A stretch of 22,796 nucleotides of DNA from a virus. How positions within the stretch are numbered: position 1 is the stretch's first letter; every line of letters begins with the position of its first letter. The notes under the pieces are model-generated. The model ran no database searches. It was not told the DNA's origin and saw only the letters and a list, made by a program, of their open reading frames with translations. The stretch lies in IMG/VR virus record IMGVR_UViG_3300001460_000231, positions 1 through 22,796 of that record. One strand, written 5' to 3'. This document shows, piece after piece, positions 1,025 through 19,410 of the stretch. A program made the translations under genes and the position numbers.

Positions 1025-1063
1025 CTGCAGGTTGTAAAGTCTTCAGACATAACTTAAAATAAA

Positions 1064-2290
1064 ATGAGTAAATTATCACTGAACATAAATTCATTTAAAG
1101 GTTCCTCAATTGAAAAGGGTTTCCTGGAGACTGACATTGAGAAAGCTAAGAAGATGCCAATAGGAACCATCTCCAGGGGCAGAAAGAAGGTTGCTGAGGG
1201 CAAATGGGTTCCAGTGGCAAAGACAGGAAAGAAAACCTCTCAGATGGAAGGTAAGTTGACCAGAAAGGACCTGGTTGAATTGCATACCCTGGGACAAAGT
1301 ACAGAGGATGAGTCCTGGGACAAATACTCTAAACTAATGAACAAACTTTTTGGAGGTAATCCAGAGATAGGTGTAAAACTTGCACTTAGTCAAACAGACA
1401 ATGCAGACAATTTTGCAACATTTGTATTAAACAAGTACAACATAAAGGATGACCAGGCACCAGATCCAAATGCACCAAACATATCCAAAGATGCAGCCAA
1501 ACTTAATCCAAATGGAACCTGGGACAATAAAGTTGTTGAAGACTACCTCAACAAAGTTGGAGGTTTAGGTGGAATAAAAGGAAAGACATCAGGTGATCTA
1601 TTAAATTATACCCTGAACTTCAACCTTATAAAACATTCAATGGATGTTGTGTTACAGCAAACAGATAAAAATGAGAGTATTCAGGCACTGGAGAACAGGT
1701 TAATTGCATCCAATGGCAATAAGTTTGAGTCAGCTATTGTAGTTGATAAGGATGGAAATCAACTCCTGGGTCACACTGACTCAGAAAAAAGAAAGGTTCA
1801 ATTTACTGAGTCTATGCAAGAGAAAATGAAGGGATCATTTGCATTAACACATAACCATCCAAGTTCCTCTGGACTATCTTCAGTTGACATGTTTCTTGGT
1901 TTAAAGTTGGGTATAAAAGAGATGAGGGCAATTGCACCAAAGTCAATATATGGATCAGGTACATTTGTAATGGTCAATAATTATCCAAATGCAGGTAAGG
2001 GTAATGGAGCAAGTTTCCAGGTTCAAAAGTTAGTGGATGGTATGAATGACTCAGAGTCACTGGTAAAGTCATATTTCAATGAAAAGATAGCCAGAGCCAA
2101 TGCAGATTCAATTGACAAAGAGATGGCTATAGCAAACGGTAGTCATTGTATGGAGGTTGCCATGCACACAGATACATTTAAGCAGGGCAGGATAGAGTTT
2201 TTCTTTGAGGATAAGAAAGGTAATAGAAAGAAGTTAGATCACTTATCTAAGGACCATAGAAATGCTCTTGACTCACTTTATGACATTTAA
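1064..2290 (+). CDS. JAB/JAMM-domain metallopeptidase-like protein with N-terminal tag
   Basis: The product is 408 residues. Residues 1-19 carry the LSLN...FKGSSIEKG tag; residues 30-57 carry the PIGTI...GKWVPVAK module shared with the first gene. The C-terminal half has a JAMM-type zinc site: SAIVVDKDGN at about 223-232 as the likely central strand, then T-H263-N-H265-P, with S272 and D275. The spacing is H-x-H-x6-S-x2-D, one residue shorter than classical JAMM but of the kind I recall from phage RadC-like JAB domains. Such domains act as zinc isopeptidases or proteases; the substrate cannot be told. The region between about 60 and 215 has no motif I recognise. Tag and neighbourhood suggest a virion or ejected enzyme; a tail-assembly (lambda K-like) protease is the main alternative. 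Confidence 0.75.
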   Translation: MSKLSLNINSFKGSSIEKGFLETDIEKAKKMPIGTISRGRKKVAEGKWVPVAKTGKKTSQMEGKLTRKDLVELHTLGQSTEDESWDKYSKLMNKLFGGNPEIGVKLALSQTDNADNFATFVLNKYNIKDDQAPDPNAPNISKDAAKLNPNGTWDNKVVEDYLNKVGGLGGIKGKTSGDLLNYTLNFNLIKHSMDVVLQQTDKNESIQALENRLIASNGNKFESAIVVDKDGNQLLGHTDSEKRKVQFTESMQEKMKGSFALTHNHPSSSGLSSVDMFLGLKLGIKEMRAIAPKSIYGSGTFVMVNNYPNAGKGNGASFQVQKLVDGMNDSESLVKSYFNEKIARANADSIDKEMAIANGSHCMEVAMHTDTFKQGRIEFFFEDKKGNRKKLDHLSKDHRNALDSLYDI

Positions 2291-2307
2291 TTACTATATT
2301 TGAAGGT

Positions 2308-2475
2308 ATGGAAGGCAAAAAAACATCAAAATACACAGATCAACTGGACAATATGGAGACCAAAGATGGTGAAATTATCCTGGATGATACTGAAAATGAG
2401 GAGGGGATCTACTCACATCTCATCAAAAAGTCCCAAAACAAACACAATTTAGGTGTTGACTTAGATCAATTTTAG
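2308..2475 (+). CDS. Small acidic protein, unknown
   Basis: This is a 55-residue ORF (MEGKKTSKYTDQL... ending DLDQF, TAG stop), rich in Asp and Glu in its middle. It starts 17 bases after the JAB gene and has the same codon style as its neighbours, including CCTGG words and AGA/AGG arginine. The sequence just upstream contains TTACTATATTTG, which resembles a Bacteroidota -7 element, but no good -33 partner is present at the normal spacing. It resembles the other short acidic ORF at 10650 in size and position (last small gene before a functional boundary), without clear homology. No function can be assigned. Confidence 0.6.
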   Translation: MEGKKTSKYTDQLDNMETKDGEIILDDTENEEGIYSHLIKKSQNKHNLGVDLDQF

Positions 2476-2510
2476 GTTCCTGGAGTAAAAAAATTCATTT
2501 AAAAGTAACC

Positions 2511-2526
2511 ATAATCAACTGATTAT
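2511..2526 (+). other. Weak hairpin in the junction before the small-gene cassette
   Basis: ATAATC, AACT, GATTAT forms a 6-bp AT-rich stem. It is followed by a run of ten A, CC and seven T at 2557-2565 and nearby, just before the first cassette promoter. It could slow transcription leaving the upstream block, but it is not a convincing intrinsic terminator because the stem is AT-rich and no T run follows it directly. Confidence 0.25.
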
Positions 2527-2567
2527 AAGGGTCTTAATTTTTTATTAAAAAAAAAACCTTTTTTTGC

Positions 2568-2597
2568 TTGTTTATTAAACAATTATGTTTAATTTAG
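2568..2597 (+). promoter_or_regulatory. Cassette promoter P1 with embedded palindrome
   Basis: TTG at 2568-2570, 19-bp spacer, TAATTTAG at 2590-2597. The spacer contains AAACA-ATTA-TGTTT (2577-2590). A C-poor leader of 51 bases (2598-2648) leads to the HTH gene. This copy has the most divergent palindrome core and -7 element of the eleven. Confidence 0.8.
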
Positions 2598-2648
2598 CAG
2601 TGTTGATGAGGTGAGGGGTTAGAGTTACTAATAGTTAAAAAGACAGCT

Positions 2649-3083
2649 ATGAAAGAGAAAATTGCAAAAGAGATTGAGGATCAAATCCATGAGTTAAACA
2701 GAAAGCAGGCTGCAGGAATACTGGATTGTTCATATAAGACTTACTTGAGCAGATTCAAAGCACTACAGAGAAAGTGGAAAAAAGCTAAGTACGGTCCAAC
2801 TCAAACTGATCAGATGAAATCATTTGGATCTAAGGTTACCAGGATCTGTAAAGGAGCCTATATCTATCATGGGGTTAACTTTAGAGTCAGGTTTGATGAG
2901 GATGCATGTGAAACAGTGTACTGGTCAATTGATGGCTTTACAGATCCTGTAGATGGATCGGAACAACCATATCACATATACGAGTGGTCTTGTGAGTGTG
3001 GAGAGTTTGAGACCAAAAAAGAGTTACTTCAAATGTTGTTTTGCTATGATCAGGAAATGAGTCAAAAAAAAGAAGTGAAATAA
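2649..3083 (+). CDS. HTH-containing protein, candidate cassette regulator
   Basis: The product is 144 residues and is the first gene of the cassette, under promoter P1. Residues 17-39 (NRKQAAGILDCS, YKTYLSRFKAL) fit a Fis/NtrC-type helix-turn-helix: the Asn-x-x-x-Ala-Ala first helix, a turn, and a recognition helix ending in L-x-R-x-K. A basic stretch (RKWKKAKYG) follows. The rest is a small domain with aromatic and acidic residues and two Cys pairs (residues near SCECGE and C57/C78 regions) with no family I know. DNA binding is plausible from the HTH. A role on the palindromic promoters of this cassette is an inference from position only. The start follows GTTAAAAAGACAGCT. Confidence 0.65.
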   Translation: MKEKIAKEIEDQIHELNRKQAAGILDCSYKTYLSRFKALQRKWKKAKYGPTQTDQMKSFGSKVTRICKGAYIYHGVNFRVRFDEDACETVYWSIDGFTDPVDGSEQPYHIYEWSCECGEFETKKELLQMLFCYDQEMSQKKEVK

Positions 3084-3096
3084 AATCACTTTTTCC

Positions 3097-3126
3097 TTGT
3101 CAGTTAAACAAATTTGTTTAACTTAG
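3097..3126 (+). promoter_or_regulatory. Cassette promoter P2 with embedded palindrome
   Basis: TTG at 3097-3099, 19-bp spacer, TAACTTAG at 3119-3126. The palindrome AAACAAATTTGTTT (3106-3119) extends outward to a perfect 20-bp palindrome, GTTAAACAAA/TTTGTTTAAC. The 55-base leader is G/T-rich and nearly free of C. It drives the HEIGH protein gene and the following ORF. Confidence 0.85.
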
Positions 3127-3181
3127 TGGTGTTGATGGGTTGAGGAGTTGGGTTTACTAATTATTTTTAAAAACAAAAGTC

Positions 3182-3586
3182 ATGAGAAGACAAAAGTTAA
3201 AAAACAAGGCAGCGTATGGAGCCAAAGTCATGAAGATGGATGACCAGGTTTATGCACTGAGGAGAAAGGTTATTGATGCCATCTATGAGGTGAAGAGAAG
3301 AGGTTATGATCTTCCAAGAATTGAGGTGAGGGTTGTTGAGGGTACAGAGGGTGCAACTGCCTATGCTTACACTGGTCGAAACATTATCCATGTTGACAAG
3401 AGGTGGATTGATCAAGACATCCAAATAAGAACTATGCATGAGATAGGGCATGCTACTTTTGGAGTTGGAAGGGTCCCTGGTTGTTTATTGATGGATTGTG
3501 AAGATTGGACCAGGTACAGTGTTGATCCAGAAAAGATCTTCAAGATATTTGATAAGTATTATAAGAAGTACACTAAAACAAAATAA
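3182..3586 (+). CDS. Small zincin-type metallopeptidase-like protein (HEIGH)
   Basis: The product is 134 residues. Residues 82-90 (IRTMHEIGH) hold the HExxH zinc-binding helix with H86, E87 and H90, preceded by a strand-like GRNIIHVDKRW segment as in zincins. A third ligand is not certain; D105, C106, E107 and D108 in the MDCEDW segment about 15 residues downstream are candidates. At this length only a minimal catalytic core could be present, so it may be a SprT- or IrrE-like fold, but I cannot assign the family. It is first in its transcript (P2), and the next gene starts 3 bases after its stop. An early-expressed protease that acts on a host protein is an inference. Confidence 0.7.
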   Translation: MRRQKLKNKAAYGAKVMKMDDQVYALRRKVIDAIYEVKRRGYDLPRIEVRVVEGTEGATAYAYTGRNIIHVDKRWIDQDIQIRTMHEIGHATFGVGRVPGCLLMDCEDWTRYSVDPEKIFKIFDKYYKKYTKTK

Positions 3587-3589
3587 GAC

Positions 3590-3874
3590 ATGAAAAAATT
3601 AAGTAGAGAGGACCTGGTGATTGCAATTGATAAGAGGTTCCCAGAGGTGAACTGTATGAGAACTGAGAGTTTTGATGGTTCTGAGGGTGGTGTGTGGATT
3701 AGTGGTGAAGATGGCATTGCAGATAAGAACGGTAAGCAGTTGTTTAGCTATTATGATGACAGTGAAAGGTATGAGTTTGGTATATTAAAAAGTGTGGCTA
3801 AGTTTCTTGAAGTGAGAGGTTGGTACGGTGAGTGGTATGATCCAGGTACATTAATGTTATGGGAGTCAGATTAA
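3590..3874 (+). CDS. Small phage protein with conserved GWYGEWYDPGT C-terminus, unknown
   Basis: The product is 94 residues and acidic. It contains GGVWISGEDGI, a Tyr-Tyr-Asp-Asp segment and a C-terminal RGWYGEWYDPGTLMLW. I recall similar small proteins in other phages, where the Trp-rich end is conserved, but no function is known to me. It is cotranscribed with the HEIGH gene, 3 bases apart. The stop is followed closely by promoter P3. Confidence 0.7.
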   Translation: MKKLSREDLVIAIDKRFPEVNCMRTESFDGSEGGVWISGEDGIADKNGKQLFSYYDDSERYEFGILKSVAKFLEVRGWYGEWYDPGTLMLWESD

Positions 3875-3887
3875 TTTCATTTTTTAC

Positions 3888-3917
3888 TTGGATATTAAAC
3901 AAAATTGTTTATCTTAG
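3888..3917 (+). promoter_or_regulatory. Cassette promoter P3 with embedded palindrome
   Basis: TTG at 3888-3890, 19-bp spacer, TATCTTAG at 3910-3917. Palindrome-like AAACAAAATTGTTT lies at 3897-3910. The 55-base leader contains only two C and has TTAATTTTTAAA at 3951-3962, ten bases before the ATG. Confidence 0.85.
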
Positions 3918-3972
3918 TATTCTGATTGAGGGTTGAGGTGTTGAGAGTTATTAATTTTTAAATTCAAATGTT

Positions 3973-4206
3973 ATGAAAAAGGAAAAGGTTTTAAAGTACA
4001 GTTGGGGAAGTTGGGATGCTGAAATAAGAAAGCATTCAAGAAGAGATGAGTATGTTTGGTCAGTATCTGATAAAGGTGGAGATGATACTTATGATTTATA
4101 TAGTGACATAGACAGTGAATTGGAGACTCTTGCTGAGGCTGAAGAGGATATGTTTATGGAGATTAGAGATAGAATTGGTCACTGCCCAGATCCACAGGTA
4201 AAATAA
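3973..4206 (+). CDS. Small acidic protein, unknown
   Basis: The product is 77 residues: a basic N-terminal 25 residues (MKKEKVLKY, IRKHSRRDEY) followed by a strongly acidic stretch (GDDTYDLYSDIDSELETLAEAEED). It is the only gene between P3 and P4. The ATG sits in the repeated GTTATG context, 10 bases after TTAATTTTTAAA. No recognisable family. Confidence 0.65.
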   Translation: MKKEKVLKYSWGSWDAEIRKHSRRDEYVWSVSDKGGDDTYDLYSDIDSELETLAEAEEDMFMEIRDRIGHCPDPQVK

Positions 4207-4219
4207 ATTATTTTTATGC

Positions 4220-4249
4220 TTGGATATTAAACAAATTTGTTTATCTTAG
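4220..4249 (+). promoter_or_regulatory. Cassette promoter P4 with embedded palindrome
   Basis: TTG at 4220-4222, 19-bp spacer, TATCTTAG at 4242-4249, with a perfect AAACAAATTTGTTT at 4229-4242. The leader is of the short class, exactly 23 bases to the ATG at 4273, like P9. Confidence 0.85.
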
Positions 4250-4272
4250 TGGTGTTGTTAAGAGAGATCGTT

Positions 4273-4392
4273 ATGAGAAAGTTAGGAAAGGTTATTGAGA
4301 TTGTTAAGGTTGTGGTTCAGGAGTTAAAAGTTTTAGTTGGGACTCCTGCCCAGAGCCAAGTTGGTGAGTTAGTTCAGTTAATTATTGTTTAA
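4273..4392 (+). CDS. 39-residue peptide related to the N-terminus of the 5701 gene
   Basis: MRKLGKVIEIVKVVVQELK... is a short amphipathic, Val-rich peptide. Its start is supported by the leader: TTAAGAGAGATCGTTATGAGA is almost the same as the sequence before the 8355 gene, which also uses a 23-base leader. The segment KVIEIVKVVVQELKVLV aligns with KVVKIVKAQVAEGKALV of the 5701 product, about half the positions being identical, so it may be a truncated paralogue. Alternatively the region is a long leader for the 4413 gene with a translated upstream ORF. The stop is 20 bases before the next ATG. Confidence 0.5.
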   Translation: MRKLGKVIEIVKVVVQELKVLVGTPAQSQVGELVQLIIV

Positions 4393-4412
4393 TTTTTAAA
4401 ATGTAAATTGTT

Positions 4413-4784
4413 ATGAAAACTAAAATTGAAAAGTACAGAAAGGGTATCATGGGAACATTAGAGTTTGATATGAAGTTACCAAAAATGAGAAAGTTCCAGG
4501 ACTTTATTGTTTATCCAATTGGACCTGGAGAAACTGTCCAGAAAGTCAAAGTTCAATCAGATACAAGAATTGGATATGTTCACCTTGATACTGGCTTGAT
4601 CCAGATGACTGGTAGCTATCCAGGAGGAGCCTACTTTCACCATTTAGCGTTTGATCTTAGAGATGTTGAGGTTATGACTCCAGAGGCATTGGAAGAGTTT
4701 AAGGAAGGTTTAAGAGTGACTGCAGGATCTAAGGTTGGTAAAAGTGTTATATTTTCTGACAACAGTGGTGCCTTTAAAATTTAA
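4413..4784 (+). CDS. Hypothetical protein, cassette
   Basis: The product is 123 residues of mixed alpha/beta character, with a basic start (MKTKIEKYRKG) and a central Gly/Pro-containing segment (YPIGPGETVQKV, SYPGGAYFHHLAFDL). No domain is recognised. Translation probably starts from its own signal: TTAATTTTTAAA at 4389-4400, then 12 bases to the ATG. It lies downstream of the 39-residue ORF in the P4 transcript. Confidence 0.65.
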   Translation: MKTKIEKYRKGIMGTLEFDMKLPKMRKFQDFIVYPIGPGETVQKVKVQSDTRIGYVHLDTGLIQMTGSYPGGAYFHHLAFDLRDVEVMTPEALEEFKEGLRVTAGSKVGKSVIFSDNSGAFKI

Positions 4785-4805
4785 AAAATAAACTTCCAAT
4801 ATGTC

Positions 4806-4835
4806 TTGGATATTAAACAAAATTGTTTATCTTAG
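4806..4835 (+). promoter_or_regulatory. Cassette promoter P5 with embedded palindrome
   Basis: TTG at 4806-4808, 19-bp spacer, TATCTTAG at 4828-4835, with AAACAAAATTGTTT at 4815-4828. The 60-base leader contains a single C. A GGAGG at 4856-4860 lies too far from the ATG (35 bases) to act as a ribosome binding site. Confidence 0.85.
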
Positions 4836-4895
4836 TGGTGTTGGTGGTTGAGAGAGGAGGTTTGGTTAATTGTTAATTTTTAAAATTTAATTGTC

Positions 4896-5126
4896 ATGAA
4901 AGGTTTATTAAGGTTACAGGAAGTTGATTTGATTATTAAAGGTCTGGAAGTTGAGAGAGGAGATTTGCAAAAGGGGTTAGATCCTTACCAGGGAAGGTTG
5001 TTGAGTCAGGAGTTGGGAAAGAAAGTTAGAAAGGCTCAGGAAAGAATTGGGGAGTTGGATGGTTTGATTGAGGTTTATGATGAGGAGAGAAGAGATCTTG
5101 AGTTTGAAAAAGCTATTGCAGGTTAA
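4896..5126 (+). CDS. Small predicted coiled-coil protein
   Basis: The product is 76 residues, almost wholly charged and helical, with Leu/Ile heptad-like spacing (VDLIIKGLEVERGDL, RIGELDGLIEVYDEERRDLEF). It lacks any catalytic motif or membrane segment. It is first of three genes under P5, with the ATG 11 bases after TTAATTTTTAAA. A partner-binding or host protein-inhibiting role is possible but unsupported. Confidence 0.65.
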   Translation: MKGLLRLQEVDLIIKGLEVERGDLQKGLDPYQGRLLSQELGKKVRKAQERIGELDGLIEVYDEERRDLEFEKAIAG

Positions 5127-5161
5127 TTAATTAAAGTTGTTAATTTTTAAAGTTTATTGTT

Positions 5162-5377
5162 ATGGATTTGAAATTTAAAGTTAGTGCACAGGGAAAAGGT
5201 TTTAAGATCTTTAAGTCAGAGGAGGATCGAGATGCTGAGGTTAAAAGGTTGGAGAGAAGTGGTTTTGTGATGCATGGTCAAGGTGACAGAGTATGGCATG
5301 AAGGTGAGGTTGTTCTTGAGACATACCTAATTACCAGTTACCAGATGAGCAAGATTGATGGATCTTGTGGTTGTTAG
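5162..5377 (+). CDS. Small hypothetical protein with Cys-Gly-Cys end
   Basis: The product is 71 residues: an N-terminal beta-like segment, a charged helix (SEEDRDAEVKRLERSGF), a second beta-like segment (VWHEGEVVLETYLITSYQM) and a terminal SCGC. The pattern could be a small beta-alpha-beta fold. The helix-then-GF pattern recalls AP2-like or double-stranded-RNA-binding-size modules, but not convincingly. The ATG follows TTAATTTTTAAA by 10 bases. Second gene of the P5 unit. Confidence 0.6.
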   Translation: MDLKFKVSAQGKGFKIFKSEEDRDAEVKRLERSGFVMHGQGDRVWHEGEVVLETYLITSYQMSKIDGSCGC

Positions 5378-5417
5378 TTAAAATAGTTCATTTAAAATAT
5401 TAAAAACAAAAATTGTT

Positions 5418-5594
5418 ATGGGAGATAGTTTTATTAAAAAGGTAGAGATTCATTTGACTTCAGAGGAGGAGTTTGTATTGGATTTGATGATCAAGGAAAG
5501 GTATGAGTACCTCATTGAAAAAGGTCTTACACATCAGGCAAAGGTCCTGGATGATACTGTTAAAAAGTTCCAGGAGCAGGGTGTTAATTTTTAA
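5418..5594 (+). CDS. 58-residue hypothetical protein
   Basis: MGDSFIKKVEIHLTSEEEF... ends in GVNF with a TAA inside another TTAATTTTTAAA copy (5584-5595). The ORF is short but has the repeated AAAAATTGTTATG start context, neighbour-like codons, and a predicted two-helix structure (SEEEFVLDLMIKERYEYLIEKG, then VLDDTVKKFQEQG). It is last in the P5 unit. No family recognised. Confidence 0.6.
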   Translation: MGDSFIKKVEIHLTSEEEFVLDLMIKERYEYLIEKGLTHQAKVLDDTVKKFQEQGVNF

Positions 5595-5613
5595 AAATAA
5601 TTTTATTTTATGC

Positions 5614-5643
5614 TTAGATATTAAACAAATTTGTTTATCTTAG
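5614..5643 (+). promoter_or_regulatory. Cassette promoter P6 with embedded palindrome
   Basis: TTA (not TTG) at 5614-5616, 19-bp spacer, TATCTTAG at 5636-5643, with a perfect AAACAAATTTGTTT at 5623-5636. The 57-base leader contains one C. The change in the -33 triplet may weaken this copy. Confidence 0.8.
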
Positions 5644-5700
5644 TGTTCTTGTTGGGTGAGGGGGTTGGTTTTATTAATGATTGTTAAAAATAGATGTGTT

Positions 5701-5961
5701 ATGGATTGTTTTGAAAAAGTTGTTAAGATTGTTAAGGCTCAGGTTGCTGAGGGAAAGGCATTGGTTGATTTGAGACCTGCCTTTGAGAAAGTGTTTAAAA
5801 AGAAAGACATTGACTTCCAGTTCATGCCTGCAGGTCACTTTGTTATTGGTGCAGTTCCTCCAGGTCATGATAAGGTTGTTGTGATCAGTAAAAGTGTGGT
5901 CCAGGTTGGTGACTGTGATCAGGTTGTTGGTCCTTATGTTGTTGGTTTTATTCAAGGTTAA
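5701..5961 (+). CDS. Small hypothetical protein, paralogous N-terminus to the 4273 peptide
   Basis: The ATG at 5701 gives 86 residues (MDCFEKVVKIVKAQVAEGK...). A GTG at 5656 in the same frame is rejected because it lies inside the conserved C-poor leader of P6. The N-terminal helix resembles the 39-residue peptide at 4273. The C-terminal half is beta-rich and Val-rich (GHFVIGAVPPGHDKVVVISKSVVQVG). It is followed by the next gene after 13 bases. Unknown function. Confidence 0.65.
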   Translation: MDCFEKVVKIVKAQVAEGKALVDLRPAFEKVFKKKDIDFQFMPAGHFVIGAVPPGHDKVVVISKSVVQVGDCDQVVGPYVVGFIQG

Positions 5962-5974
5962 AAATAGATAGATC

Positions 5975-6265
5975 ATGAAAGAGTTGAAAATTTTAGATGA
6001 GTTAGTTCAGTTGGATGTTGAAGGTTTAGGAAAGGGATTGTGTAAGATGCATGAGAGTGATCCAGACATGAAAGTAGTTTTAGCCTTTGGGATGTTAGAT
6101 GCAGGATTGTGTGAGTTGATGAGAAAGCATTTGAAAGCCAAGGTCCTTTCAAAGTTAAGTAAGGAGGCTAAGGATTTGTTCCCTGACTTAATTGAGGTCT
6201 ACATTAAGGAGTGTGCAGGGGCAGTTGAAAAAAGTGTTTACAAATATGCAAAAATGGTTGTTTAG
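5975..6265 (+). CDS. Small helical hypothetical protein
   Basis: The product is 96 residues, Leu- and Lys-rich, predicted mostly helical (LDELVQLDVEGLGKGLCKM, KAKVLSKLSKEAKDLF), with four Cys scattered without a metal-site pattern. Second gene of the P6 unit, starting after AAAAATAGATAGATC. Promoter P7 begins four bases after its stop. No family recognised. Confidence 0.65.
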   Translation: MKELKILDELVQLDVEGLGKGLCKMHESDPDMKVVLAFGMLDAGLCELMRKHLKAKVLSKLSKEAKDLFPDLIEVYIKECAGAVEKSVYKYAKMVV

Positions 6266-6268
6266 TCT

Positions 6269-6298
6269 TTGTTTATTAAACAAAATTGTTTATCTTTA
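6269..6298 (+). promoter_or_regulatory. Cassette promoter P7 with embedded palindrome
   Basis: TTG at 6269-6271, 19-bp spacer, TATCTTTA at 6291-6298, with AAACAAAATTGTTT at 6278-6291. The -7 element differs from the other copies at its last two bases. A 52-base leader with one C leads to the nucleotidase gene. Confidence 0.8.
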
Positions 6299-6350
6299 CG
6301 GTGTTGATGGGGTGAGGGGGTTGAGTTGTTGTTGTTTTAAATTTTAAGTT

Positions 6351-6752
6351 ATGGAAAAAAGAGTTGTTTACTTTGACATGGATGGGGTCCTGGTTCGTTA
6401 TCCAGTTCACAAAGATGAGGTCAAGAGTTTTATTGATCTCCCTCCCATTCCAGAGGTAGTTGACCTTTACAAAAGGTTGGTCAAAGATCCAAGGTATGAT
6501 GTTTACATTGCCAGTACTGCACCTTACAGTCAGCCACAGGCATGGATGGACAAAAGGTTGTGGGTTGAGAGATACCTTGGTGAGGCAGCCTTCAAGAGAT
6601 TGATCCTTACTCATCACAAACACTTGCTGATTGGTGACTATCTTATTGATGACAGGTTGGCAAACGGTGCTGCAGACTTCAAAGGTGATCACATCCAGTA
6701 TGTAGAAGGTGAGATGAGTATTGCAGAGGTTGAGAAAAGAATAGGTTATTAA
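6351..6752 (+). CDS. HAD-family 5'(3')-deoxyribonucleotidase-like phosphatase
   Basis: The product is 133 residues. HAD motifs appear in order: YFDMDGVL at 7-14 with nucleophile D9 and acid/base D11; IASTAP at about 53-58 (motif II); the lysine in HHKHLL at about 91 (motif III); GDYLIDDR at about 95-102 (motif IV acidic residues). The short cap and the STAP and DDR variants match the NT5C-type deoxyribonucleotidases common in phages, which remove phosphate from dNMPs. The role would be control of nucleotide pools during host DNA breakdown or phage replication; the exact substrate is inferred. First gene of the P7 unit. This is the clearest enzyme of the cassette. Confidence 0.85.
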   Translation: MEKRVVYFDMDGVLVRYPVHKDEVKSFIDLPPIPEVVDLYKRLVKDPRYDVYIASTAPYSQPQAWMDKRLWVERYLGEAAFKRLILTHHKHLLIGDYLIDDRLANGAADFKGDHIQYVEGEMSIAEVEKRIGY

Positions 6753-6771
6753 TCATTTAAAATTAAAGATC

Positions 6772-7221
6772 ATGAAAGAAGATTTTGTTTATAGAGAAGA
6801 GGTAAGAGTTTCAGGTTTAGCTTATCCATTTCAATTAGTAATTGAGCCATTGGACCTGCCAGTTATTTATTATATGACTGATGAGATTGAGTCAATAAGT
6901 AAGGTTGATCTAACTTCAATAAAACTAATTACAGGTAAAAAGTCATTCAGGTTAGTTACATGTGCAGGAGTTGATCTTCACAGTTCAGAGGGTGACAGCT
7001 ACAAAGGTGTTGAGGTTGTTAAGTTAAGTTATTCTGAAATGTTGGAAGTTCACAGGTACAGAACTGCAGATCCAATATCCAAAAAGGAATACCTGGAGTC
7101 TGGTTTGGCAGCAGCAAAGATGATGAAACCTGGAGAGGTTGACTTTGGGTTTGATGGTGTCTCCAGGGACAGATACAAAATGATATATTATTTGAGTGAG
7201 GAAATAAAAAAACTTGCTTAA
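6772..7221 (+). CDS. Hypothetical protein, cassette
   Basis: The product is 149 residues of mixed structure, acidic, with no membrane segment. The N-terminal half is beta-rich (VRVSGLAYPFQLVIEPLDLPVIYYM, TSIKLITGKKSFRLVTC); the C-terminal half is helical. It is cotranscribed with the nucleotidase (20-base gap, TTAAAGATC before the ATG). No motif recognised. Promoter P8 starts five bases after its stop. Confidence 0.65.
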   Translation: MKEDFVYREEVRVSGLAYPFQLVIEPLDLPVIYYMTDEIESISKVDLTSIKLITGKKSFRLVTCAGVDLHSSEGDSYKGVEVVKLSYSEMLEVHRYRTADPISKKEYLESGLAAAKMMKPGEVDFGFDGVSRDRYKMIYYLSEEIKKLA

Positions 7222-7225
7222 TAGT

Positions 7226-7255
7226 TTGTTAATTAAACAAATTTGTTTAACTTAG
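7226..7255 (+). promoter_or_regulatory. Cassette promoter P8 with embedded palindrome
   Basis: TTG at 7226-7228, 19-bp spacer, TAACTTAG at 7248-7255. AAACAAATTTGTTT at 7235-7248 extends to an 18-bp perfect palindrome (TTAAACAAA/TTTGTTTAA). The 54-base leader has two C. It serves three genes. Confidence 0.85.
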
Positions 7256-7309
7256 TATTCTGGTTGAGGGGGAGAGGTTGAGTTTATTAATAATTTAAAA
7301 AACAAAATT

Positions 7310-7615
7310 ATGTTTGAAATTTCAATGAAAAAAGTAGATGGTTCTGACTATGTTTCAATAATAGCAGAAAAGGGTAAGGCAAAGTTAGAGATCCTTTATT
7401 TTGGTCAGGACTTCTCTGTCCTGAGAACCATGTCTGGAAAGAGATCAGCAATTGCAAGTCCAATGGGAAAGTATTTCTTTGACTATGAAGATGTCTGTTC
7501 TCATTACAAACAGTTTACTGAGATCCTGGAGGACCAGGCAGATATGGTTGATTCTTATGTAGGTATGTTGGGATCACTTAAAGAGGCAAAAAAATTACTA
7601 AAGGTAAAAATTTAA
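7310..7615 (+). CDS. Hypothetical protein, cassette
   Basis: The product is 101 residues: a beta-rich first half (DYVSIIAEKGKAKLEILYFGQDFSVLR), then a helical second half (YKQFTEILEDQADMVDSYVGMLGSLKEAKKLL). It is first in the P8 unit and followed by the next gene after 4 bases. No recognised family. Confidence 0.65.
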   Translation: MFEISMKKVDGSDYVSIIAEKGKAKLEILYFGQDFSVLRTMSGKRSAIASPMGKYFFDYEDVCSHYKQFTEILEDQADMVDSYVGMLGSLKEAKKLLKVKI

Positions 7616-7619
7616 AGAT

Positions 7620-7859
7620 ATGAAAAGTTTTAAGTCAGTTGGAGAGATAAAGAAAGAGATCATGTCATTCAACAACACAGCATTCCTTAAAAAAGTGTTG
7701 ATCAGAGAAGGAGGTGAGGTTGTTGGTGTTGAGATGCACTTCCAGGGAACCAGGTTTGCACTGGAAGGAATTTACAGGTTGTTTAAAAAAGTGATCCACG
7801 TAAGCTATGAAGGGTCTTATATGATCTTTAAAAGAGAGGGTATTGGATCTTACAAATAA
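7620..7859 (+). CDS. Small hypothetical protein, cassette
   Basis: The product is 79 residues, basic, with an alternating hydrophobic pattern (VLIREGGEVVGVEMHFQGTRFALEGIYRLF) suggesting a small alpha/beta fold. It starts after TTTAAAGAT, a typical context here. Second gene of the P8 unit. Unknown. Confidence 0.6.
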   Translation: MKSFKSVGEIKKEIMSFNNTAFLKKVLIREGGEVVGVEMHFQGTRFALEGIYRLFKKVIHVSYEGSYMIFKREGIGSYK

Positions 7860-7868
7860 ATTAAAGAT

Positions 7869-8288
7869 ATGGAGGTAAAAAAACTACATAGGATTTTGAG
7901 TGAGGCTGCCAGGTTTGATGTGATGTTTAACACTACTGCAGTGACCGATAAGGGACTCAAGTTGAGTATCCAGGGCAAAGGTCCACAGGACTCACTTTTC
8001 CTTTACAGGAGGTTAAAACATCTCCTTTATGGTAGTGATGTTCCCTTTAAGGTTGCAACTGCCAGGAGGTTTGATCTGGATGACCAGGAGCAAAGTAAAA
8101 AGGCAATGACCATATATATTCCAGATCACCTGGACCATATTGAGTTTGCTGAGTTGGTTTATGCCAGGATCATGGATTATAAAGGTTGGTATGATATTAA
8201 AACTCCTACAAGTTATGATCACTATGCAGGTGGAATTTATTACAGGAGTGATAGAGATGGTAAGGGAAAATATATTCCTGCAAAATAA
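7869..8288 (+). CDS. Hypothetical protein, cassette
   Basis: The product is 139 residues. Segments include a helical start (KKLHRILSEAARFDVMF), an Arg-rich middle (LYRRLKHLLYGSD, ATARRFDLDDQEQ) and a Tyr/Gly-rich end (YDHYAGGIYYRSDRDGKGKY). It could bind nucleic acid by charge, but no fold is recognised. Third gene of the P8 unit; the ATG follows TTAAAGAT. A 63-residue frame at 8140 inside it is a shadow. Confidence 0.65.
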   Translation: MEVKKLHRILSEAARFDVMFNTTAVTDKGLKLSIQGKGPQDSLFLYRRLKHLLYGSDVPFKVATARRFDLDDQEQSKKAMTIYIPDHLDHIEFAELVYARIMDYKGWYDIKTPTSYDHYAGGIYYRSDRDGKGKYIPAK

Positions 8289-8301
8289 TTTTATTTTATG
8301 C

Positions 8302-8331
8302 TTGTATATTAAACAAATTTGTTTATCTTAG
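8302..8331 (+). promoter_or_regulatory. Cassette promoter P9 with embedded palindrome
   Basis: TTG at 8302-8304, 19-bp spacer, TATCTTAG at 8324-8331, with a perfect AAACAAATTTGTTT at 8311-8324. Short leader, exactly 23 bases, closely matching that of P4. Confidence 0.85.
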
Positions 8332-8354
8332 CGAAGTAATTAAGAGAAAGAGTT

Positions 8355-8711
8355 ATGAGAGATATTGTTCAGATAGATTTAGAGATTTTTGAAAAAACTG
8401 TGGCTTACAGGGGTGGGTACCAGGGGGTGTTTGGATTCAAAAAACCATTTGCTGATTTTTGTGTGATCCAGATGGATGACTTTGATAAAAGTTTGGTCCA
8501 GGACATTAAATTAAAACCAGGTCAAATAATTGCCAGGTATGAGACTGATACTTCTAAGATCAGCAGGAGTCAACCACTGATAAAAATAGATTATGTGAGG
8601 GGTCTGGTTTACTTTCTTACAGATCGTGCCTGTGAGGATGACATTGTTGAGTTTGAGAAAAGGGGTCAAAAAGTAATTTATATGAAATTAGATCCAAAGT
8701 TTATTGATTAA
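8355..8711 (+). CDS. Hypothetical protein, cassette
   Basis: The product is 118 residues, with alternating aromatic and charged segments (YRGGYQGVFGFKKPFADFCVIQMDDF) and a beta-rich end (LIKIDYVRGLVYFLTDRA). It is the only gene of the P9 unit and uses the short-leader start TTAAGAGAAAGAGTTATGAGA. No family recognised. Confidence 0.65.
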   Translation: MRDIVQIDLEIFEKTVAYRGGYQGVFGFKKPFADFCVIQMDDFDKSLVQDIKLKPGQIIARYETDTSKISRSQPLIKIDYVRGLVYFLTDRACEDDIVEFEKRGQKVIYMKLDPKFID

Positions 8712-8714
8712 AGT

Positions 8715-8744
8715 TTGTAAGTTAAACAAATTTGTTTATCTTAG
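8715..8744 (+). promoter_or_regulatory. Cassette promoter P10 with embedded palindrome
   Basis: TTG at 8715-8717, four bases after the preceding stop; 19-bp spacer; TATCTTAG at 8737-8744; a perfect AAACAAATTTGTTT at 8724-8737. Long leader of 58 bases. Confidence 0.85.
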
Positions 8745-8802
8745 TAGGGCAGATGGGGTTGAGGTGTTTAGGTTTATTAATTATTATTAAAGATTGTTTA
8801 TT

Positions 8803-9147
8803 ATGAAAGTTACAAGAAAAAGTTACCAGGAAAAGTACTCTGAGAGAAGTGAGTTAATTTGTGCAAAACAGTCTGCAGATCGTGCAGATGATATGCCAAG
8901 TTACTTTGAGGCTAAGGCAAGAATTGAGGAGTTGGACAAAGAGTTTTTTGACAAACTTCCAACTGTCAAGGTCAGTTTTAGTATTGGCAGTCGAAGTTAT
9001 TACCAGGAGGTTGTTAAGATAGGGAAAAGTTACTTCAAGTATGGAGAGTCACTTACTGCAGGTAGAGGTTACTATGGTGTTACTGAGATACCAGAGATCA
9101 CTGAGAAAATGACTCATGAAATGATTAGTGATAGTTATTATTATTAA
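8803..9147 (+). CDS. Hypothetical protein, cassette
   Basis: The ATG at 8803 gives 114 residues (MKVTRKSYQEKYSERSE...). A TTG at 8794 in frame is rejected because it is still in the leader and the ATG has the usual TTATG context. The first part is charged and helical; the second is Tyr/Gly-rich and beta-like (VSFSIGSRSYYQEVVKIGKSYFKYGESL), ending SDSYYY. Unknown function. First gene of the P10 unit. Confidence 0.65.
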   Translation: MKVTRKSYQEKYSERSELICAKQSADRADDMPSYFEAKARIEELDKEFFDKLPTVKVSFSIGSRSYYQEVVKIGKSYFKYGESLTAGRGYYGVTEIPEITEKMTHEMISDSYYY

Positions 9148-9159
9148 AATTAGATAGAG

Positions 9160-9480
9160 ATGAAAAAGATAAAATTAAAAATATTGAGAGGTAAGGTGTC
9201 CAGGGAGGAAAAGAGTCCTTATGTATTTTCAGAACTTATTTCAGAGAAAGAGGCACTGGATAAACTGACTGACAAAGCATCAGATGCACTACAGGAGTTT
9301 AGTAAGTTCAAAGGTGACATGGGACTTTTACCAGATGAGGTTAGGCAGTCTGATGAGTACAGGTCCAAAAAAAGGATCTTTGACCAGGAGTTTAAAAAAT
9401 TAAGAGAGGTTAACAGTTTATTGATGAAGTACTTTAAACCTGAGATGAGGCAAAGGTCAAAAGAAAAAAGAGGATATTAG
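9160..9480 (+). CDS. Charged helical hypothetical protein
   Basis: The product is 106 residues, very lysine- and glutamate-rich and largely helical (KEALDKLTDKASDALQEFSKF, KKRIFDQEFKKLREVNSLLMKYF), with a basic tail (RQRSKEKRGY). The TAG stop lies in the loop of a hairpin that looks like a terminator. Second gene of the P10 unit. A DNA-, RNA- or protein-binding role is possible from charge only. Confidence 0.65.
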   Translation: MKKIKLKILRGKVSREEKSPYVFSELISEKEALDKLTDKASDALQEFSKFKGDMGLLPDEVRQSDEYRSKKRIFDQEFKKLREVNSLLMKYFKPEMRQRSKEKRGY

Positions 9481-9489
9481 TCCTCTTTT
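9466..9489 (+). terminator. Stem-loop overlapping a stop codon, likely terminator
   Basis: AAAAGAGGA (9466-9474), loop TATTAG, TCCTCTTTT (9481-9489): a 9-bp perfect stem followed by a T-rich ATTTG. The stop codon of the preceding gene is the last three loop bases. Promoter P11 begins immediately downstream. Confidence 0.6.
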
Positions 9490-9491
9490 AT

Positions 9492-9521
9492 TTGCAATTT
9501 AAACAGTTTTGTTTATCTTAG
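9492..9521 (+). promoter_or_regulatory. Cassette promoter P11 with embedded palindrome
   Basis: TTG at 9492-9494, 19-bp spacer, TATCTTAG at 9514-9521, with AAACA-GTTT-TGTTT at 9501-9514. The core differs from the other copies while both half-sites are kept. The leader is 46 bases. Confidence 0.8.
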
Positions 9522-9567
9522 CAGGGTCAGTGTGACAGAGGTTATTAATTATATAAAGATCGTAGTT

Positions 9568-9768
9568 ATGAGCATTAAAGAGAAAATTTTAAGAGAGCAA
9601 AAAGCACTAAAAGTTTTGGCTGAGTTAAAGGATGAGGTAGAGGCATGTTTGAAATTTTTTATTGAGTCTGACATTAAAATATATGGATTCATTAAAAAGG
9701 GAACAGTTGAAGTCTTCAAGGTCCAGGGTGTTGAGTTCCCAGAGTTATTAATTAAGTTTGTAAAATAA
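9568..9768 (+). CDS. Small hypothetical protein
   Basis: The ATG at 9568 gives 66 residues (MSIKEKILREQKALKVLAEL...). A GTG at 9532 in frame is rejected because it lies only ten bases past the P11 -7 element. The N-terminal half is a charged helix; the C-terminal half is hydrophobic (CLKFFIESDIKIYGFIKKGT). No family recognised. The next ATG follows after 8 bases (AAAGATAGAT). Confidence 0.6.
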   Translation: MSIKEKILREQKALKVLAELKDEVEACLKFFIESDIKIYGFIKKGTVEVFKVQGVEFPELLIKFVK

Positions 9769-9776
9769 AGATAGAT

Positions 9777-10361
9777 ATGGAAAGTTTAAAGATTGAGTAC
9801 AGAGGATTTGTTATTGTTCCAAGTGATAGATTGGAGGGATGGTTCATGACTGAGTGTGATACAATGTGTGGAGAGACAGTTGCTGAGGTTCAGCAGGATC
9901 TTGACCAGATGATCATTGACCAGGCTAAAGAAAAGAAAGTAACCTATTACTTCCAGGGAGAGTTTGGTATGGGCATTAGGAAAGTCGAAGGTAGGTTGGT
10001 TGATATTGAGGTTAGGAAGTGGGCACAATACAGTTGTTCTCCTTCAATTAAAATGATACCAAAAAGAAAGAGGTTGATCAGGGAGTACAGGCAAACTTAC
10101 AAACCATTCTTTTTGGTCCTGGATGGATACGGTCATCCAGACTTAGATGATGGATACATTAAGTTGGAGTCTTCGGTTCCAGGTGTAACTGTTAAGAAGT
10201 CAAAATATACTTCCTTTGATCCAAGGTGGAAAGAGGAGGCAGGTTCAACACTTGACCAGTACCTCCAGGAAAGTGGATCAAAAATAATTGCTGATTATAG
10301 AGAGTCTTCAGGGTTCAGTTCATATACAGGACCTGTTTACTCAAGGTTAGGTTTAGAATAA
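9777..10361 (+). CDS. Hypothetical protein, largest of the cassette
   Basis: The product is 194 residues. The first 50 (IEYRGFVIVPS, GWFMTECDTMCGETVAEVQQDLDQMI) resemble a short module I recall from small phage proteins, in which a YRGY strand and a GxT(V)xEVxxxID helix form a beta-alpha unit. The remainder is basic in the middle (PKRKRLIREYRQTYK) and ends in a Tyr/Ser-rich tail. No catalytic motif is seen. Second gene of the P11 unit. Confidence 0.65.
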   Translation: MESLKIEYRGFVIVPSDRLEGWFMTECDTMCGETVAEVQQDLDQMIIDQAKEKKVTYYFQGEFGMGIRKVEGRLVDIEVRKWAQYSCSPSIKMIPKRKRLIREYRQTYKPFFLVLDGYGHPDLDDGYIKLESSVPGVTVKKSKYTSFDPRWKEEAGSTLDQYLQESGSKIIADYRESSGFSSYTGPVYSRLGLE

Positions 10362-10384
10362 AAACAATTTAAAAATAGAAAGTG

Positions 10385-10627
10385 ATGTCATTAGAGAGAG
10401 AAGTAAAGGATCTAAAAAAGATCCTTTTAGATCCAAGAATAAATTTGTCAGGGTTGTGTAAAACCATTAATAGACCAGGCTTGTCAAGAGCCTCCCTGGT
10501 AAATAAGATGAATGAAAAGCATGTTTGTAATTTAAACCAGGAGGATGTTAGGTTAATTAAAAAGTCCCTTAAGAAATTAAATTCAGATATTTCAAAAACA
10601 ATACTGTTTTCTTTTATAAATAAGTAG
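10385..10627 (+). CDS. Small possible DNA-binding protein, unknown
   Basis: The ATG at 10385 gives 80 residues; a GTG three bases upstream is less likely. The sequence LLDPRINLSGLCKTINRP, SRASLVNKMNEK, LNQEDVRLIKKSLKKL resembles small helical proteins with an HTH-like pattern (helix, turn, S-x-x-x-L-x-x-K-M) that I recall from phages, but I cannot name a family. A strong short hairpin (10405-10427) lies within its first codons. It is last in the P11 unit and marks the end of the cassette. Confidence 0.6.
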   Translation: MSLEREVKDLKKILLDPRINLSGLCKTINRPGLSRASLVNKMNEKHVCNLNQEDVRLIKKSLKKLNSDISKTILFSFINK

Positions 10628-10649
10628 AAAATTTTGTAAATTTATTATT

Positions 10650-10814
10650 ATGGCAAAAAAAACCAATATTTCAGATAAAGAACTGGACAGAGATCTTGTA
10701 AACTTAAATTTACCAGAGCCAGACATGTCTCCAGAGGATAGCATAGATGATTTGTCTTTCTATGGAGAGGCAACAAAAAAATTATTAAAGGATCAATTAA
10801 CTAAGAAAGACTAA
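10650..10814 (+). CDS. 54-residue acidic protein, unknown
   Basis: MAKKTNISDKELDRDLVNL... is acidic in its centre (LPEPDMSPEDSIDDL) and ends TKKD with a TAA at 10812-10814. The start is preceded by TTTATTATT. The codon style and CTGG words match the zeta-like gene that starts 12 bases later, so I place it with the late block, not the cassette. It could be an antidote-like partner of the kinase by position, but its sequence does not resemble the epsilon antitoxin. Confidence 0.55.
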   Translation: MAKKTNISDKELDRDLVNLNLPEPDMSPEDSIDDLSFYGEATKKLLKDQLTKKD

Positions 10815-10826
10815 AATATTTTTGAT

Positions 10827-11873
10827 ATGGCTAAGGGTAAAGAAGGGTTAGTCCCTGTAAAAAAAATGGTTCAACCTAAGTCAGGTAAGCCACATGTCAA
10901 AACATTCTGGATGAAACCTGGAGAGTTTGAGGAGCACAAAAGTAAAACCTCTAAGTCAACAGAGGACATGTACAAAAAAGATGGTAAGTGGACTGAAGAG
11001 AGAGGTAAAAAGCATGCAGCTACAGTAAAAAAAGTTGTTGAAAGTTGCCCATTTCCTCCCAAAGGTGAAAAGCCAAAATGTGTTTTATTACTGGGAGGAG
11101 CAGCATCAGGTAAGTCAACAGTTGTTGATAGGTTTGTTAAGCCAGAGATGGGAGGTAACTTTGGGACAGTAAATGTTGATGATGTCAAGGAAGACATAGA
11201 TGAGTATGCTCAGTTTGTAAAGGATGATGTTGCTACAGCAGCCAGTAGGGTCCATGAGGAGTCTTCAGAGATGGGTAAGGCAATTACATCATCAGTTATA
11301 CAAGATGGTAGGAATTTTATATATGATGCAGTCCTGGGTAATCCAGAGAAGGCAAAAAAAATGATAGCCTCACTTAAAGCCAAAGGTTATGAAGTTAGCC
11401 TGGTTGGTGTTAATGTAGATGCAGAGGAGTCACTTGATAGAGCATCTTTGAGAGCCTTTGGAAATGTAGAGCAGGGTGGAGATAAAGGAGGATCAGGAAG
11501 GATGGTACCTCCAGGAATATTACTTGATGGTCATAGAGGTGCATCCAGAACATTTGATGCAATAAAAGACATGGTTGATGGTGTTTCACTTTATGACAAT
11601 AATGTTGAATATGGAAAGGATCCTATAGCAGTTGTAACTGCACCTCCACAAAAAGTATTAAGAGAGGACCTTTACAGTGAGTTTAAAGGAAAGGCAGACC
11701 TTAATATTGCAGAGGCAGTAAACAGGTACAATAAAAAGCAAATAAACAAAGCAATTGATCTTATTCCAGATGCAGAGGAGTGGATACTTCAAAAAGCCAT
11801 CTCTGAAGAGACAAATGCTATAAAAAGAGAGGTTTATATCCATAAGTTAAATAGAATGAGATCCAGGGTATAA
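10827..11873 (+). CDS. Zeta-toxin-like P-loop kinase
   Basis: The product is 348 residues. Residues 85-97 (CVLLLGGAASGKS) form a beta strand plus Walker A loop; NVDDVKEDID at 116-125 supplies a candidate catalytic aspartate; RVHEESSEMGKA at 142-152 and GRNFIYDAV at 161-169 match the zeta-toxin pattern; DRASLRAFGN at 204-213 and GRMVPPG fit the lid and arginine region. Zeta toxins phosphorylate UDP-GlcNAc and block cell wall synthesis; other members act on small nucleotides, so the substrate is open. The N-terminal 80 residues (GLVPVKKMVQPKSGKPHVKTFWMKPG) are an extra basic module similar in style to the VPVKK modules at the window start. C-terminal about 90 residues are helical. It sits one base upstream of the holin-like gene. 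Confidence 0.75.
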   Translation: MAKGKEGLVPVKKMVQPKSGKPHVKTFWMKPGEFEEHKSKTSKSTEDMYKKDGKWTEERGKKHAATVKKVVESCPFPPKGEKPKCVLLLGGAASGKSTVVDRFVKPEMGGNFGTVNVDDVKEDIDEYAQFVKDDVATAASRVHEESSEMGKAITSSVIQDGRNFIYDAVLGNPEKAKKMIASLKAKGYEVSLVGVNVDAEESLDRASLRAFGNVEQGGDKGGSGRMVPPGILLDGHRGASRTFDAIKDMVDGVSLYDNNVEYGKDPIAVVTAPPQKVLREDLYSEFKGKADLNIAEAVNRYNKKQINKAIDLIPDAEEWILQKAISEETNAIKREVYIHKLNRMRSRV

Positions 11874-17804: not shown

Positions 17805-19298
17805 ATGAGCAATGTTAGCGTAGATTTGGCTCAGTACGGTCATGGTGCAGGATTAGGGGATGATGCAATGGCATCAGTACCTCAGTCAGCAGAGGCAGTA
17901 CATGAGTTATCAAAGGCACTTGAGGCAAGATCAATCACAGGTAGAGAAACTACTGGTTTGACAAATGCATCAGGAGCACCACTTAAGGTAGAATCTTTAG
18001 AGAAAAACTTAAAGGTTTTAACTTTTACAGAAAATGACATCAGAACCTGGAAAAGGATTCCAAAGGCACCTGCATTCAACACAGTTGAGGAATACTTGCA
18101 GTTACAGTCTTATGGAGCAGACAGAGGAGGTTTTAATAATGAAGGTGAATTACCTGAAGAGGAGGATGCAACTTACGTTAGAAAGGCTGAGTTAGTAAAA
18201 TTCTTAGGAGTTACTAAGTCTGTTACTCATCCAATGACTCTTACAAAAACGTACATCGGAAACGCAGTACAAAGAGAAGTTACAAATGGTATCCAGTGGA
18301 TCCTTAGAAAAGCAAATAAAGGTTTGTTTTATGCAAATGCATCTTTGGTTCCTCAAGAATGGAATGGTTTATATACTCAGCATTATGTAAATGGTGGTTA
18401 TGCTAATTTAGATGCATACCAGGCAAACAATGAGTTGGTAGTTGATTTAAGAGGTAAGAGACTTAAGGAAGAGAATATTGAAACTGGAGCAGAGGCAATC
18501 GTGAGAGCGTTTGGTCAAGCAAATGTTTTAATTGCACCTCCAGTAGTTCACTCAAACTTTGTAAAGAACTTCCATGACAAAAAGTTAATCAATCCATCTT
18601 CAATTCAGGTAACTGGAGCGACAATGGGTCAAAAGGTTAATAAATTTGCATCTCAGTATGGTGAAATTGACCTTGAGTATGATATTTTTGCATCAAAGTC
18701 AGCACCAAAAGTATTAGGTGATGGAGCAACAAGCACAAAGGCACCTACAGCAGTTACATCAAACAGTGGGGCAACTCCTGTGGCAGCTAACTCTCAGTTT
18801 GCAGCAGCAGATGCAGGTAACTACGTTTATGCAGTTACAGCTAAGAATAGATACGGTGAGGCAGCACCAGTGAGAATCACAGGTGGAGCAATTGCAGTGG
18901 CAGCAGGTGATGGTACAGACTTGGAATTTACAGCAGGTGGTGGTACTTATGCAGCAACTTCATTTGTAGTTTACAGATCTAAAATTGGTGATACAGGAGC
19001 AGCAGCTAAATTATACCCTATCATTGAGGTATCTGTAGCAGAAAAAGCAGCAGGTTTTGATGGAGCAGCAGCAACAAAGGTAAGGGACATTAACAGATAC
19101 CTTCCTGGAACTGAGGAGGCTTTATTGTTACAAGATTCATCAGACATTTATGAGTTCAAGCAATTGGCACCATTAATGAAAATGCCTCTTGCACAATTAA
19201 GTCCTGCACAAAGATTTATGGTCTTACTTTATGGTACTCCAATTATGTACCAACCTAAAAAGGTTGTAAGGTTCATTAATATCGGAACTGCATCTTAA
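17805..19298 (+). CDS. Major capsid protein, HK97-fold type
   Basis: The product is 497 residues. It follows the protease/scaffold after an 86-base leader and precedes a strong terminator, the normal place for this gene. A flexible N-terminal region (1-65; LSKALEARS, ESLEKNLKV) may be cleaved on maturation. FTENDIRTWKRIPK, QREVTNGIQWILRKANKGLFYANASL and PPVVHSNFVKNF are typical of capsid proteins of large Bacteroidota phages and relatives. Residues about 305-432 form an Ala/Thr/Gly-rich insertion with a fibronectin/Ig-like pattern (NYVYAVTAKNRYGEAAPV, SFVVYRSKIG). The gene has more CpG and fewer CCWGG words than its neighbours, consistent with distinct codon choice for high expression. Confidence 0.85.
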   Translation: MSNVSVDLAQYGHGAGLGDDAMASVPQSAEAVHELSKALEARSITGRETTGLTNASGAPLKVESLEKNLKVLTFTENDIRTWKRIPKAPAFNTVEEYLQLQSYGADRGGFNNEGELPEEEDATYVRKAELVKFLGVTKSVTHPMTLTKTYIGNAVQREVTNGIQWILRKANKGLFYANASLVPQEWNGLYTQHYVNGGYANLDAYQANNELVVDLRGKRLKEENIETGAEAIVRAFGQANVLIAPPVVHSNFVKNFHDKKLINPSSIQVTGATMGQKVNKFASQYGEIDLEYDIFASKSAPKVLGDGATSTKAPTAVTSNSGATPVAANSQFAAADAGNYVYAVTAKNRYGEAAPVRITGGAIAVAAGDGTDLEFTAGGGTYAATSFVVYRSKIGDTGAAAKLYPIIEVSVAEKAAGFDGAAATKVRDINRYLPGTEEALLLQDSSDIYEFKQLAPLMKMPLAQLSPAQRFMVLLYGTPIMYQPKKVVRFINIGTAS

Positions 19299-19322
19299 GA
19301 GTAGAATTTAATATTCACATAT

Positions 19323-19379: not shown

Positions 19380-19410
19380 ATGAAGTAAAAATTTAAAAAT
19401 AAATTAGACC

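Follow-up and report, generated by a model that had tools for sequence, protein, structure and literature searches.

An invariant dyad in eleven dispersed putative host-type promoters of a Bacteroidota myophage suggests an operator for a phage-encoded regulator

The host-takeover module of Bacillus phage SPO1 groups about 26 small genes into several operons with strong host-type promoters (PMC6873191), and in the Herelle-like Kayvirus vB_SauM-515A1, 58 dispersed host sigma promoters drive the non-structural genes (PMC7698491). In Cluster A mycobacteriophages such as L5 and Bxb1, each genome contains 20-30 dispersed sites for the repressor, and the motifs of different subclusters diverge along with it (PMC6550527). 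The timing of genes in virulent phages of Bacteroidota, which are major gut and aquatic bacteria, has been little studied. Here we analyse a 22,796-nucleotide stretch of viral DNA (IMG/VR record IMGVR_UViG_3300001460_000231, positions 1 to 22,796; hereafter the window), in which eleven dispersed putative promoters, each with an embedded palindrome (dyad), precede a block of small genes. Judged by its sequence, the window comes from a Bacteroidota myophage of the SPO1/Herelle type, whose nearest annotated relatives have Bacteroides and Chryseobacterium as hosts. The major head protein places it in the SPO1-like lineage and resembles those of SPO1-like phages and Chryseobacterium phage MA9V-3.

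The locus resembles that of SPO1, to whose structural lineage the phage belongs, in its cluster of small genes behind host-type promoters, but the text consulted on SPO1 describes no palindromic operator at the promoters (PMC6873191), and the genes of the block here lack recognisable homology to known families. With the Kayvirus it shares many dispersed host-type promoters before non-structural genes; palindromes or inverted repeats are, however, not mentioned for that phage, and its early genes are not evidently shut down (PMC7698491). Dispersed sites whose sequence diverges by lineage also recall the Cluster A phages (PMC6550527). The stoperators of the latter are asymmetric, lie mostly off promoters and serve lysogeny, whereas the window sites are symmetric and always located at the -33/-7 elements, and no integrase was found. 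In the open-access literature searched, we found no description of such an embedded-operator arrangement in Bacteroidota phages.

Both strands of the window were scanned for the promoter pattern with up to 3 mismatches, the result was compared with shuffled sequences, and the copies were then aligned column by column. The scan returned 11 matches on the plus strand and none on the minus strand, compared with a mean of 0.06 and a maximum of 1 in the shuffles (Table 1). These are the same eleven sites that an initial annotation had listed, and the 19-bp spacer it gave them is present in 11/11 copies, within an element spanning 30 bp. The half-sites AAACA and TGTTT are, as had been claimed, conserved throughout, but the true invariant dyad is larger, comprising arms TTAAACA (7 columns) and TGTTTA (6 columns) separated by N4 in all copies, and it shares two bases (TA) with the -7 element rather than the single base originally proposed. 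Both the position of the dyad and its conservation are plain in the alignment: not one of 143 arm cells is substituted, while the 4-bp core varies in 7 of 44 cells, in keeping with the variable core first reported, and the spacer flank in 16 of 44. The left arm is the part that no promoter model requires. Its minority cells number 0/77 versus 23/88 for the remaining spacer columns (Fisher p = 1e-7), so that neither constraint on -33 and -7 alone nor uniform recent duplication accounts for the arm. The window sites have the conserved dyad arms and free core by which an operator for a dimeric regulator is recognised.

The Bacteroidota promoter layout assigned at the outset agrees with the sigma-ABfr consensus of TAnnTTTG at -7 and TTTG near -33 (PMC7366714). 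The -7 element reads TAnnTTAG, one base off this consensus, in 10/11 copies and TATCTTTA in the remaining one. Of the individual forms, TATCTTAG is exact in 7/11, with TAACTTAG in two and TAATTTAG in one; the supposedly universal TTG is found in 10/11 copies, the copy at 5614 reading TTA. The TTG near -33 and the 19-bp spacer are compatible with this promoter type, for which an AT-rich spacer of suitable length is expected. An A/T-rich tract lies upstream of -33, and there is no conservation upstream of about -20 relative to TTG. Downstream, conservation extends into the leader, which in most copies is G-rich over 50-60 bases with few C. The -33 triplet begins 3-21 bp past the preceding stop codon, except in the first copy, where the distance is 92 bp; from the -7 element it is about 20-60 bp to the next start codon. 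Every site is intergenic and oriented as the downstream gene, and the structural (capsid/head) block has none. As the initial annotation had estimated, the number of genes behind the promoters is about 23 by our reading of the open reading frames (ORFs), and we infer that this block is expressed early.

The exact window pattern has no match in IMG/VR. A relaxed pattern retrieved 34 stretches, many of which are coding-region coincidences in aquatic phages, and led to a 69-kb contig (G028), which matches window positions 566-2632 at 99.3% identity. This closest relative carries two copies of the dyad promoter. One is the homologue of the window's first site, with both arms unchanged and the 4-bp core exactly inverted (TAAT for ATTA, window 2582-2585), as expected from a hairpin-mediated flip. 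The other lies about 25 kb away in a recombination/replication region and has a similar G-rich leader; the dyad site is thus not confined to the cluster. G028 also has a second promoter class (n=3, about none expected by chance) of the form TAAACT-N4-AGTTTA-N5-TAnnTTnG, which lacks TTG and in which the dyad is placed 7 bp further upstream, covering the -33 position. The sense strand of window 2600-10600 is C-poor: it contains 11.1% C, the head-gene block 14.2% and G028 13.9%.

In more distant relatives, no copy of the window dyad sequence was found. We ran a repeated-dyad search on these, and gathered a second set of relatives via a polymerase-like protein. G004 and G005 have 12 and 14 sites, respectively, of the type TTG-N20-TATCTTTA with the dyad AAAGATA-N9-TATCTTT overlapping -7, and G006 has 14 sites with AAATATA-N5-TATATTT, again overlapping -7; reversed-sequence controls score at most 10, compared with 28-64 for these sites. 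Dyads of the AAGATA/AGATA type occur in G043 and G045, the AAATATA-N5 type in G037 and G038, and AAATATA-N5/7 in G054, while G046 has a dyad of its own, G058 has AAGTATAA-N3-TTATACTT, and that of G039 is placed further upstream. The G005 sites also avoid the structural block, with none between 23.7 and 70.1 kb (terminase, tail sheath, baseplate, portal). For a symmetry test, the relatives' sites were chosen by -33 and/or -7 only, leaving the left arm unused, and each set was compared with 200 spacer shuffles. Dyad symmetry exceeded all 200 shuffles in six of the seven dyad sets (window, G004, G005, G006, G054 and G037). In DAC16 and G027, negative controls with plain dispersed host-type promoters, it did not, so that the dyad is not inherent in Bacteroidota promoters in general. 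Phages of the DAC16 type, which lack the dyad, are available in culture.

The initial annotation had held that loss of the half-sites in relatives that retain the -7 element would refute its proposal. Taken literally, this is what is seen beyond the closest relative, yet a dyad is kept at the same place in several lineages with its sequence changed, so that the operator reading survives in modified form. Together with the conservation of the left arm, this favours the dimeric protein site originally proposed, and it suggests that the wider group may keep the layout but differ from lineage to lineage in dyad sequence, as would be seen with a fast-evolving control switch. One further relative by major head protein, G023, was considered and rejected as an example of the same system. 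Its six clustered AATGAAT...ATATAG elements (L137, 3-9 kb), followed by Shine-Dalgarno sites, have no such dyad and apparently represent an independent repeated-promoter system.

We consider it probable, though well short of certain, that the early promoters of the window are of host type and each incorporate an operator at which a dimeric protein of the phage represses the early genes. Host housekeeping RNA polymerase (sigma-ABfr type, TTG-N19-TAnnTTnG) would fire the early or host-takeover genes from the eleven promoters. A phage-encoded dimeric DNA-binding protein would then bind the operator within the spacer and -7 element of each, most likely TTAAACA-N4-TGTTTA, and exclude RNA polymerase from -7, shutting off the whole block together after the first burst. 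Operator and regulator specificity would co-evolve, which could give rise to lineage-specific dyads in the wider phage group. The elements would accordingly have to act as promoters and be bound by a dimer, and the regulation would be repression rather than activation, which we prefer because the promoters look strong alone (near-consensus elements, normal spacer, A/T-rich upstream tract). If this is true, each phage governs its early block through one protein and the operator sequence serves as a code specific to the lineage; relatives infecting the same cell could then exclude or cross-regulate each other even without lysogeny. The window promoters might also serve as ready-made regulated promoters for Bacteroidota genetics.

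A hint that the dyad can be a repressor operator, and the strongest we have, comes from an unrelated temperate phage with integrases (G030), in which TAAACA-N4-TGTTTA is present at about six promoters, one of which immediately precedes the gene for a CI-like repressor (PF07022, above the cut-off). As in such CI/Cro-type operators, the palindrome in the window overlaps the promoter; the window differs in that each of its 11 promoters has a single site, the myophage is apparently virulent, and no CI-like gene was found. The same promoter is also common to other apparently unrelated phages (the G029/G035/G036 group), which could mean that the dyad belongs to a host-encoded regulator exploited by phages. 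Among 84,980 genomes of bacteria and archaea, however, the exact pattern has a single occurrence, in SAR86 and probably by chance, related phages carry different dyads, and the Bacteroidetes LexA operators GGA-N5-TCC and CTAA-N5-TTAG (PMC8565304), which we tried as a candidate, do not match the window motif. We hold a host regulator to be improbable.

The same apparently strong promoters argue against the dyad being an activator site, at which a regulator would turn the promoters on by MerR-like action in the spacer or by recruitment, since near-consensus elements with a normal spacer and an A/T-rich upstream tract should need no activator; moreover, the dyad extends into -7, the classic place for polymerase exclusion. 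On the other hand, the dyads do sit between -33 and -7, and the second-class sites of G028, with the dyad over -33 and no TTG, look like an activator position. While these considerations make activation unlikely in our view, the second-class sites leave room for a dual repressor/activator. Extending this, it is conceivable, if rather speculative, that a whole clade of virulent SPO1-like Bacteroidota phages runs early transcription by means of a private operator-regulator pair that diverges rapidly, with the operator embedded in each early promoter. One factor might then repress where the dyad lies over -7 and activate where it replaces -33, as at the second-class sites, so that the phages could pass from early to middle genes with neither a sigma factor nor an RNA polymerase of their own.

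Early-promoter cassettes have been described in T4-like phages, and the window promoters might likewise be recombination joints, that is, mobile cassettes for the gain and loss of host-takeover genes, with the palindrome incidental to regulation. The leaders are similar among copies, and G028 lacks gene 2649-3083, with the junction inside the promoter/leader; that junction is at a contig end, where an assembly misjoin is possible. Recombination alone does not explain why relatives keep a differing dyad at -7, and the arms are invariant whereas the adjacent spacer, core and upstream sequence vary, leaving this explanation with little probability. Still harder to credit is a bidirectional promoter in which an inverted -7 element lets polymerase start both ways. 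Symmetric bidirectional promoters are known (PMC12825309), and relatives of the G004/G005/G006 type have a left arm that matches the reverse complement of the -7 element exactly. The window left arm, however, reads TGTTTAA when reversed, which is not a TAnnTTTG element, the sites lie between same-direction genes, and G005 has no TTG 19-20 bp before the reversed element. A hairpin promoter for an N4-type virion RNA polymerase is likewise unlikely because of the host-type -33/-7 layout.

The leading candidate for the regulator is a winged helix-turn-helix (winged-HTH) protein that is syntenic in G028, where 18532-19395 encodes it, and in G005 and G006, with a Pfam DeoR-like HTH above the cut-off in G005 and a weak ArsR-like match in G028. 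It is present in eight of the ten dyad lineages (G028, G005, G006, G043, G045, G046, G054 and G058). Its absence from G004 is explained by a contig that ends exactly at the expected gene position, and G043, with the same dyad type and the same identity to the query, has the protein. As sole regulator the family was rejected: synteny and co-occurrence favour it, but G037 and G039 contradict it. A 79-aa family, HTH-like by eye only and encoded at 41051-41290 in G028, is shared by every one of the ten dyad lineages; beyond these, only MA9V-3 and G059 have it. In the window itself, a predicted 80-aa helical protein in the eleventh unit is a weak candidate: 15 of its 21 Foldseek matches are C.Esp1396I or XRE regulators, all with E > 1, there is no Pfam HTH match, and neither phage records nor IMG/VR yielded homologues. 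The gene for this protein includes, at 10596-10609 within its 3' end, a twelfth AAACA-N4-TGTTT dyad that lacks promoter elements.

Several observations weigh against repression by a phage-encoded regulator as set out above. No dyad was found in G027 and G059, yet both have the winged-HTH protein, whereas G037 and G039 have dyads but lack it. Symmetry in the seventh dyad set, G045, does not rise above that of the shuffles (mean arm 5.36; maximum in the shuffles 5.64), and the copies within one phage are not fully independent. Furthermore, the window, G028 and the dyad-bearing relatives, whose records may be incomplete, contain no integrase match over the cut-off (PF00589) and no HTH_3 match (PF01381), making a lambda-like role in lysogeny unlikely; temperate immunity of the lambda or L5 type, which has an integration gene and a CI-like repressor, is not indicated. 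Sigma region 4 (PF04545) has no match over the cut-off in any of 16 possibly incomplete records, and a phage sigma factor of this family is not indicated.

Table 1 Putative promoter-operators and other features (window coordinates unless a contig is named)
Feature	Position	Strand	Basis or remark
Promoter-operator 1	2568..2597	+	TTG 2568-2570; TTAAACA 2575-2581; TGTTTA 2586-2591; -7 from 2590; homologue in G028
Promoter-operator 2	3097..3126	+	Scan and alignment
Promoter-operator 3	3888..3917	+	Scan and alignment
Promoter-operator 4, short leader class	4220..4249	+	Scan and alignment
Promoter-operator 5	4806..4835	+	Scan and alignment
Promoter-operator 6, TTA replacing TTG	5614..5643	+	Scan and alignment
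Promoter-operator 7, -7 = TATCTTTA	6269..6298	+	Scan and alignment
Promoter-operator 8	7226..7255	+	Scan and alignment
Promoter-operator 9, short leader class	8302..8331	+	Scan and alignment
Promoter-operator 10	8715..8744	+	Scan and alignment
Promoter-operator 11	9492..9521	+	Scan and alignment
About 23 small non-structural genes, 11 putative transcription units	2649..10814	+	ORF reading
First-unit gene, 144 aa	2649..3083	+	Absent from G028, junction within promoter/leader
80-aa helical protein, eleventh unit, possible XRE/Cro-like HTH	10385..10627	+	AlphaFold2 pLDDT 61
Major head protein	17805..19298	+	phrog_752, E = 1.2e-84; Bacteroides phage DAC16, 46.9% aa identity; structural block without dyad promoter
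Second-class promoters of G028, before three genes	L197 10777-10805, L197 16420-16448, L198 4985-5013	-	

Nearly all genes of the block are without a recognisable family, and none has homologues in the 108 relative loci searched. Gene 6351-6752 encodes a 5'-nucleotidase-like HAD protein, and gene 3182-3586 has a weak metalloprotease match. The predicted fold of the 144-aa first-unit protein was of low confidence, too poor for use. Head genes, including those for a maturation protease and the major head protein, are found from 10.8 kb onward, and beside them window 10827-11873 encodes a protein with a zeta-toxin-like P-loop kinase domain (PF06414, E = 9e-32). Successive proteins in window 551-2290 and G028 1698-5175, and also in G005, have in common an N-terminal motif resembling LSLN-x(3)-FKGS-x(2)-EKGF, which could be a common targeting or packaging tag. 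Finally, positions 22766-23124 of the SPO1-like Chryseobacterium phage MA9V-3 are annotated as a transfer-messenger RNA (tmRNA) gene of the phage's own.

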